From contig CALVAM010000012.1 in the NCBI GenBank assembly GCA_944325545.1, forward strand, positions 1-64,000: a DNA stretch of 64,000 bases, in the 5' to 3' direction. This document shows, one piece after another, positions 40,877 through 42,182 of this stretch. The notes beneath the pieces were generated by a model. That model ran no database searches. It had not been told where the DNA came from and saw nothing but the letters and a program-made list of their open reading frames with translations. The stretch is from Candidatus Gastranaerophilales bacterium (GTDB lineage: Bacteria > Cyanobacteriota > Vampirovibrionia > Gastranaerophilales > Gastranaerophilaceae). The translations under genes were made by a program, and so were the position numbers. Position 1 is the first letter of the stretch, and each line of letters opens with the position of its first letter.

Positions 40877-40956
40877 ATAAAACGGAGTTTAACTAATTCT
40901 TTTAATTGTCTTATTAACTTAATATAAACCTTAAGCCGATTTTTTATATATTTACC
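40877..40956. other. Intergenic stretch before the repeat array
   Basis: About 80 bp of AT-rich sequence follows the terminator-like hairpin and leads into the 105-bp array. With the array it makes the 500-bp gap between convergent genes. No gene, promoter or further dyad is supported here. Confidence 0.5.
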
Positions 40957-41339
40957 CCTGACTTGATATTTATATTTCCGCTTATAGTCTTAACTTATGT
41001 CACCCGACCATTTGTCTACGTGCGGGGGTGGGGTAAACATAAATTTAGGTTTTGATTTTGAGGGTGACTTGGAGTTTGATTTTTACTTGTAGTCTTAACT
41101 TATGTCACCCGACCATTTGTCTACGTGCGGGGGTGGGGTAAACATAAATTTAGGTTTTGATTTTGAGGGTGACTTGGAGTTTGATTTTTACTTGTAGTCT
41201 TAACTTATGTCACCCGACCATTTGTCTACGTGCGGTTTAAATAAATACCAATTTAGAGTTTTGTCTTAGAGGGTGACTTGATGTTTATATTTCCGCTTGT
41301 AGTCTTAACTTATGTCACCCGACCATTTGTCTACGTGCG
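40957..41339. repeat. Array of four 105-bp repeats with a 39-bp invariant core
   Basis: The 39-bp core is identical at 40986-41024, 41091-41129, 41196-41234 and 41301-41339, each exactly 105 bp apart. The first two 66-bp spacers are identical; the third has diverged but keeps the same length. A half-unit lacking the core precedes the array at about 40957-40985. Each core contains GTCACCC, which pairs with GGGTGAC in the preceding spacer (41062-41068, 41167-41173, 41271-41277), giving a 7-bp stem with a 35-36 nt loop. No frame is open through a unit. The last core ends 6 bp from the stop codon of the hook-basal-body gene at 41346. Seen directly; its role is unknown. Confidence 0.95.
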
Positions 41340-41345
41340 TAGCAC

Positions 41346-42182
41346 CTATTGAGTTGCCATTTCCATTGCTGATTGCAGCAAATCTTTGTTTGACTTAATC
41401 AAAGCATTAACAAGTTCCATTTGAACCTTAGCCTGTTGATAATCAGACATATTGGCTTTAAAATCAGTATTTGCTTGTTCTAATAAACCTGAACGAATTT
41501 CCCCGCGACCAACTACAGGTTTACCTGATTCAGGAGTTTCAACAAAAACACCTTCTTTAACTTCATATAATCCATTCGGGTTATGAAAGTTTGCCGTTGC
41601 TATTTTATATAAAGGTACAGAACGATTACCACCATCGGCTTTTCCATAGATAGTACCGTCATTTTTTATTTCATATTCATCATATTTACCTAAAAATTTA
41701 CCATTATTTGGATCAATCCAAAGTTTTATATTCGTAGTAGGTACACTCAAAGCCCCACCTTTTAAAGCCGTTTCTTCGTACAAATCAGCACTAAGCGATT
41801 TAGTTCCGGACATTATTTCACCTTTATCATTTAATATATATCCTTGAACAGTAGCACCGCTTTTAGCTCTATAAACACCTTCAGAATCAAAAGTAAATTC
41901 ACCTAAACGGGTATAAGAAACATTCCCTTCAGGAGTTCTTAATACAAAATAACCTGTACCTTCAAAAAACAAGTTTTCATTAGAAGTCCCTGGAATAGAT
42001 TTACCCTGTCCTAGGTTTTTAACATTATTATCAATAACCGCACCTCCGAGAAAAGTTTTAAATGTAACTTTATTTTCTCTATACCCTGGAGTATAAACAT
42101 TTGTTAAGTTTTCTGCTAACACATCCATCCATTGAACAGTGGCTTTTTGTGTGTTAATTGCCGTTGTGTATAAATCATTCAT
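41346..42182 (-). CDS. Flagellar hook-basal body protein (FlgG/FlgF family)
   Basis: The 278-residue protein has the rod/hook N-terminal signature (MNDLYTTAINTQKATVQWMDVLAENLTNVYTPGYRENKVTF), a middle GTGYFVLRTPEGNVSYTRLGEFTFDSEG and the C-terminal RSGLLEQANTDFKANMSDYQQAKVQM helix. These define the FlgE/F/G family, and its length is close to FlgG and FlgF. The Asn-Val-x-x-x-Gly-Tyr hook signature is slightly altered. It is the last gene of a minus-strand operon behind a FliK-like and a FliJ-like gene, with an 8-bp overlap to the FliK-like gene. FlgF versus FlgG cannot be settled by eye. Confidence 0.88.
   Translation of the reverse strand: MNDLYTTAINTQKATVQWMDVLAENLTNVYTPGYRENKVTFKTFLGGAVIDNNVKNLGQGKSIPGTSNENLFFEGTGYFVLRTPEGNVSYTRLGEFTFDSEGVYRAKSGATVQGYILNDKGEIMSGTKSLSADLYEETALKGGALSVPTTNIKLWIDPNNGKFLGKYDEYEIKNDGTIYGKADGGNRSVPLYKIATANFHNPNGLYEVKEGVFVETPESGKPVVGRGEIRSGLLEQANTDFKANMSDYQQAKVQMELVNALIKSNKDLLQSAMEMATQ

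Follow-up and report, generated by a model that had tools for sequence, protein, structure and literature searches.

Background

Mycobacterial interspersed repetitive units (MIRUs) contain reading frames and are located at TGA/ATG overlaps, and Supply et al. reportedly described them in 1997 as lying inside operons, in the direction of the genes and at stop codons. They are repeats of 40-100 bp interspersed between genes, and their tandem copy number varies between isolates (PMC2734929). GTAG REPs are short extragenic hairpins that carry GTAG motifs, occur in grouped copies and form families with compensatory changes in the stem (PMC3733652). The repeat described here is functionally closest to these two systems and is a member of neither, because the type of stop codon, the missing coding frame, the position of GTAG, the loop size and the distribution of RAYT all differ.

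The Gastranaerophilales are non-photosynthetic relatives of cyanobacteria. A tandem array was noticed at the end of a flagellar operon in the window, the whole stretch of 64,000 nucleotides that was analysed, from a genome of this order. Here we compare the array with related loci across the order and describe a family of hairpin DNA elements of about 100 bp in gut Gastranaerophilales. The family is previously undescribed; a search of the open-access literature found no account of such an element in this lineage.

Methods

All genomes compared were metagenome-assembled genomes (MAGs). The covariance model R1 was built from copies in the array's own genome (G000), and a second model, R2, was built on 62 head units. 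In a first survey of insertion sites, a stop codon was counted if it ended an ORF of at least 60 codons, or of at least 30 codons when the ORF ran off the end of the sequence. A repeat survey used covariance-model sites in five congeners (G015, G047, G053, G102 and G103) and in G238, which belongs to another genus.

Results

The 39-bp core AGTCTTAACTTATGTCACCCGACCATTTGTCTACGTGCG was found four times without mismatch, at 40986, 41091, 41196 and 41301. Direct search thus confirmed the exact 105-bp spacing and the absence of any change in 39 bp that had been claimed in the original prediction, as well as its reading of the spacers, in which 1 and 2 are identical and 3 differs. Tandem Repeats Finder placed the array at 40981-41339 (period 105, score 560), by far the strongest in the window, and reported no other strong one. 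As also foreseen, the array is richer in GC than its surroundings (39% versus 29% for the whole window) and is non-coding, with no ORF of 60 aa or more overlapping it. It is bordered on one side by a convergent plus-strand ORF and on the other by the 3' end of a minus-strand operon encoding FlgE/F/G-like, FliK-like and FliJ-like proteins. Its position right after this hook operon proved to be flush, the array ending on the base that precedes the TAG stop of the FlgE-like gene, which reads CTA on the plus strand (Table 1). The claim that a GGGTGAC arm is kept stood for units 2-4 and failed for unit 1, where the arm reads CCCTGAC. An assembly artefact, which had been named as a possible refutation, is contradicted by independently assembled relatives, in which orthologous arrays of 3, at least 2 and 5 units (G022, G043 and G051, against 4 in G000) lie at the same stop codon.

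Table 1. Coordinates in the window of the array and of the adjoining gene
Feature	Position	Strand	Remarks
Whole tandem array, four units	40954..41345	- (gene strand)	head at 41345 behind FlgE-like stop codon
Unit 4, head unit, complete element	41265..41345	-	R2 model 90.5 bits
Head hairpin GTGC-TAC-GCAC (4 bp, 3-nt loop)	41335..41345	-	covariation; outer strand retained by head unit only
Unit 4 stem arm, GTCACCC on +	41314..41320	-	pairs with 41271-41277
Unit 4 partner arm, GGGTGAC on +	41271..41277	-	pairs with 41314-41320
Unit 3	41163..41234	-	arms 41167-41173 with 41209-41215
Unit 2	41058..41129	-	arms 41062-41068 with 41104-41110
Unit 1, distal, decayed	40954..41024	-	arm 40956-40962 no longer complementary to 40999-41005
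TAG stop codon of FlgE/F/G-like hook gene	41346..41348	-	flush with array head
FlgE/F/G-like hook gene, last gene of the operon	41346..42182	-	ORF list and protein identification

In the sense direction of the adjacent gene, the element has the form GTGCTACGCACGTAGACATTTGGTCGG-NNN-AC-(35-36 nt)-GT-N'N'N'-CC-TCAAAGTAAAACTACAAG. It is about 98 bp long and has a fixed head, GTGCTACGCACGTAG, and its A-rich loop of 35-36 nt holds two (A)ACTACAAG-like boxes. Two helices are formed, a 4-bp head hairpin (GTGC/GCAC) and a 7-bp stem that closes the ~36-nt loop. Among 62 distinct heads, each admitted with at least 6 of 7 Watson-Crick pairs, 99.0% of cells pair; cells with double changes number 99, compared with 27.9 in shuffles, and the covariation score is 0.379 versus 0.089. 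Covariation was lost when the partner was shifted by 1-3 columns. The head helix has five compensated changes from G-C to A-T, and RNAalifold, unaided, predicted the same two helices. An alternative head hairpin, CTAC-GCAC-GTAG, was considered and had weaker support than GTGC-TAC-GCAC. Under a looser rule (4 of 7 pairs, with GG...CC fixed at the stem foot), perfect arms were counted in 160 of 196 unique units, with 18 distinct perfectly paired middle triplets. As judged from the aligned copies, compensatory change has kept both hairpins. Structure covariation, which had been proposed as a check, is therefore strong across the family, and it is this covariation that supports selection on the paired arms; identity inside the hook array, from which such selection had been argued, is local homogenisation. 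Mismatches on the gene strand of the 196 units, which are few and partly clustered in nifU-like arrays, were G-T in 3 and A-C in 16, which argues against a fold of the sense RNA. If the tolerated mismatches are wobbles, the folding strand would be the opposite of the gene strand, or DNA.

When the core was searched in its own genome and in related assemblies, as had been recommended, the array turned out not to be unique and to belong to a dispersed family. Related arrays or single copies in G000 lie on C14, across the end of C3 and the start of C15, on C1, and at C3:15420 and C29:10446; their arms differ from GGGTGAC/GTCACCC yet mostly stay paired. Within the genus, the R1 model matched 37 of 58 genomes; the 39 genomes searched from other genera gave no match. 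Across the order, the R2 model recovered the family in 9 of 50 genera. It is dense solely in this genus and occasional in the other eight, where G238 and G334 gave strong matches. The site in G238 is the same terminator as in a congener, and transfer or mis-binning is therefore possible. Named records that contain the 16-base end come almost entirely from Gastranaerophilales, Melainabacteria or unnamed gut MAGs. Five viral contigs matched the 16-mer end, with flanks unlike the element, and were taken as chance; the element was absent from the phage and plasmid collections searched. No match to the hairpin element was found in Rfam at gathering or relaxed thresholds.

Other Gastranaerophilales (L102, L113, L125, L153 and L162; MGG09899 and relatives) carry different repeat families of ~90 bp (GTCCTAATTCTGCACTTCC..CAAGCG..), which share only the TCTACGTGCGTAGCAC end with the hairpin element. 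CGTAGCAC itself occurs in tandem repeats in L125.

The first survey, whose loci were partly chosen by head sequence, yielded 36 heads behind an ORF stop (35 TAG and 1 TAA), with an offset of -1 or 0 in 31 cases, and 18 further heads flush behind the T-tract of a terminator. The repeat survey (n = 39) placed 19 heads behind a stop (15 TAG, 4 TAA, 0 TGA), 9 behind T-tracts and 11 elsewhere. Stop usage with the element was 19 TAG to 3 TAA, versus 57 TAG, 123 TAA and 39 TGA without it, TAG ending 57 of 219 long ORFs in the element-free background. For the most part, the element prefers TAG stops, and terminator T-tracts are a second, smaller class. The head usually lies 0 or -1 nt from the stop (UAG^ or UA^G, the caret marking the junction), and orientation was uniform at the gene sites examined, with the head facing the stop and the element reading with the upstream gene. 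A complete intrinsic terminator precedes about a quarter of the heads. The host genes, named mostly from reading translations and not from profile searches, are about 22 unrelated ones, including those for the hook protein, a nifU-like protein, fructose-bisphosphate aldolase, S8, L6, S14 and ATP synthase c, together with ssb, secD, ferritin, ybaB, nuoH, fliF and others. Many sites are intercistronic in ribosomal, ATP-synthase and flagellar operons. A readthrough or recoding element after UAG was rejected: the downstream frame differs between offset 0 and offset -1 sites, and the proteins end at normal C-termini.

The 16-base end was also seen inside genes for type IV pilin-like proteins (L117, L124, L145, L163, L166 and others), where it is read in frame as GATHVD and either directly precedes duplicated FTLAE leader sequences or lies inside them. 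A leader segment of ~60 bp is tandemly repeated in L145. Such insertions would fall in the cleaved leader.

Filled and empty sites were compared using one genome per species. Besides the hook-gene arrays given above, several congeners have one or more units at this position, some copies are decayed and about nine genomes are empty; in two congeners, an unrelated GGGGGTAAAT repeat occupies the same point. The same mosaic of filled and empty sites is found at the rpsH and rplF stops, and no constant target duplication was seen in comparisons at these three genes. The 92 sites hold 1-5 units each and 49 of them single units, numbers that may be underestimates because several arrays end at contig ends. 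These 92 arrays fall into 44 flank clusters. Most arrays keep one unit spacing throughout, but loci differ (88-114 bp, apart from a single gap of 139); arm types are mixed in 18 of 43 arrays, and the median similarity of adjacent units is 93%. Outside its own array, a unit has its closest match at the same site in another genome about as often as at a different site. In internal units the GTGCTA stretch of the head is usually missing, which fits a duplicated segment that starts inside the head. The nifU-like site keeps GGGGAAC arms throughout the genus, so that some insertions are, to judge by these arms, old and vertically inherited.

Contigs end inside arrays at the end of G000:C3 and start of C15, in G022:C3, in G043:C2 and C11, and in G044:C17 and C22; the repeats therefore break short-read assemblies of the genus.

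Further repeats were observed near these genes. A third repeat, GGGGGTAAATAAGGGGGAAAATCC..., takes the place of the element behind the hook-gene stop in G003 and G044 (L199 and L202). A second, structured-looking repeat of ~165 nt (..GCCGGTGTGAAGTCCGAATTTGGCGGCGG..CACAGGCGG) lies directly behind rpsH/rplF stops (L253, L254, L255, L256 and L270); it matched no Rfam family at the gathering threshold, and similar TAGGTGCTACGC copies lie on either side of it in L253. Repeated palindromes of typical REP shape, GTAGGGTGCAATTTTTTGCACC, are present in L015 (G000:C29), and this genome has two RAYT-sized Y1_Tnp genes. A Cas9-like protein of 1037 aa (HNH_4, RuvC_III, Cas9_RuvC) is encoded at L131:3541-6651 (G029:C76), with the rpsH-rplF region and a decayed element copy close by.

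Discussion

We consider it probable (at about 0.6) that the array arose by tandem amplification of a short, non-autonomous, site-preferring mobile DNA element of Gastranaerophilales. Among the roles first offered for the array, a mobile palindromic repeat was the best fit. Dispersed sites, presence and absence among genomes, single orientation, an exact end and tandem homogenisation together point to a small mobile element. A putative enzyme supplied in trans would recognise a folded single strand by its shape and its repeated CTAC/GTAG motifs, the folded DNA strand being the likely substrate, and insertion would take place at the 3' ends of genes or transcription units. Arrays may then gain and lose units by unequal recombination or slippage that begins within the head, and this would explain why the head hairpin of internal units lacks its outer strand. 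For the host, any consequence would be secondary, because insertion behind a stop codon or terminator is harmless. Selection for harmless sites must contribute to the site pattern; selection alone would not be expected to fix one end to the base or to produce a strong preference for TAG. The unusual feature is the target, namely the base after a stop codon or T-tract. No autonomous copy was found, and 84 ORFs near heads, inspected by eye and only in part by profile, contained no recurring transposase. Candidate mobilising enzymes (Y1/RAYT, RVT_1 and integron integrase) all failed to fit by co-occurrence.

The main rival is a cis-acting RNA element at mRNA 3' ends or between cistrons, selected for stabilisation, processing or translation termination and copied between genes. 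Its orientation with the upstream gene, its many intercistronic sites in ribosomal, ATP-synthase and flagellar operons, the recovery of both hairpins by RNAalifold and the conservation of the nifU-like and hook-gene sites across species would all agree with such a role, which we nevertheless regard as unlikely: little transcript is expected at the quarter or so of heads past a complete intrinsic terminator, G-U intermediates on the gene strand are nearly absent, and many congeners have no element at the same genes. The terminator-distal copies and the mismatch pattern thus make an mRNA role the less likely one. The tandem terminator that had been suggested fares no better, as no terminator-like site was found inside the array, where terminator and promoter scans stayed near chance level, and a complete terminator already stands upstream of many copies. 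The placement of heads at UA^G or UAG^, or right after T-tracts, could also mean that an unknown system senses the ends of genes or transcripts, through ribosomes terminating at UAG or released 3' ends, with insertion coupled to termination and the strict Watson-Crick hairpin as substrate; this we think quite doubtful. Helically phased tandem sites that bind a nucleoid, partition or regulatory protein would account for the exact 105-bp spacing in the hook array and for the repeated ACTACAAG boxes within each unit. The element is dispersed and often absent, however, and more than half of its sites hold a single unit; the phasing over ten helical turns once proposed fails because unit length is locus-specific (88-114 bp), and nothing was found to favour nucleoid or partition roles as such. 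We judge this reading very improbable.

A REP-like element mobilised by a RAYT/Y1 transposase would be in keeping with the recurring GTAG/CTAC motifs of every unit, with stems of 6-9 bp whose compensatory changes are typical of GTAG REPs (PMC3733652), and with RAYT-sized Y1_Tnp genes in 36 of 65 genomes of the genus. It is an improbable explanation, as 16 of 37 element-bearing genomes have no Y1_Tnp match, including the near-complete and element-rich G047, G053 and G054, and the foot of the stem, which begins 25 nt from the head end, has no GTAG next to it, the nearest one being elsewhere. The hairpin family resembles GTAG REPs, BIMEs and REPINs in its compensatory stem families, grouping and GTAG motifs, and differs in its single orientation, ~98-bp length, 36-nt loop and head locked to a stop or T-tract.

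Group IIC introns insert just behind the T-tracts of intrinsic terminators, and a retroelement or group II intron derivative placed at terminators by a reverse transcriptase would share this flush insertion and the one fixed end. We give the least credence to such an origin, since just 15 of the 65 genomes from the genus carry RVT_1, which is sporadic and does not track the elements, and stop-codon sites outnumber T-tract sites. The element is only ~98 bp long, with no intron RNA and no reverse transcriptase, and no match to group II intron domain V was obtained in Rfam.

MIRUs, compared by description, share the dispersed intergenic unit and the variable tandem number (here 1-5 units over 92 sites; 3, 4 and 5 at the hook site). 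The hairpin family differs from them in preferring TAG as well as terminators, with no TGA among its flush stops, in being non-coding, with no ORF in the array, and in its covarying stem. Integron attC sites and CALINs are likewise folded recombination sites immediately behind stop codons, whereas the hosts here are conserved operon genes; none of 65 genomes had an integron integrase above the TIGR02249 cut-off, and attC boxes (RYYYAAC...GTTRRRY) were not seen at the ends of the 62-sequence consensus. Rickettsia palindromic elements, also compared by description, are small repeats tolerated in many genes; the pilin-leader copies with the same head resemble them in being in frame, while the hairpin family itself is intergenic. 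The head GTGCTACG and tail ACTACAAG are not complementary, so that the terminal inverted repeats of a classical MITE are lacking.

Conclusions

The element is probably a novel form of small non-autonomous mobile repeat, a dispersed one with a single orientation and with insertion points set almost to the nucleotide by the ends of genes. A structure kept by compensation, together with defined sites, makes its target choice and mechanism directly testable. The family helps to account for breaks at such sites in short-read assemblies of these bacteria, and its arrays offer ready VNTR markers for an uncultured gut lineage.
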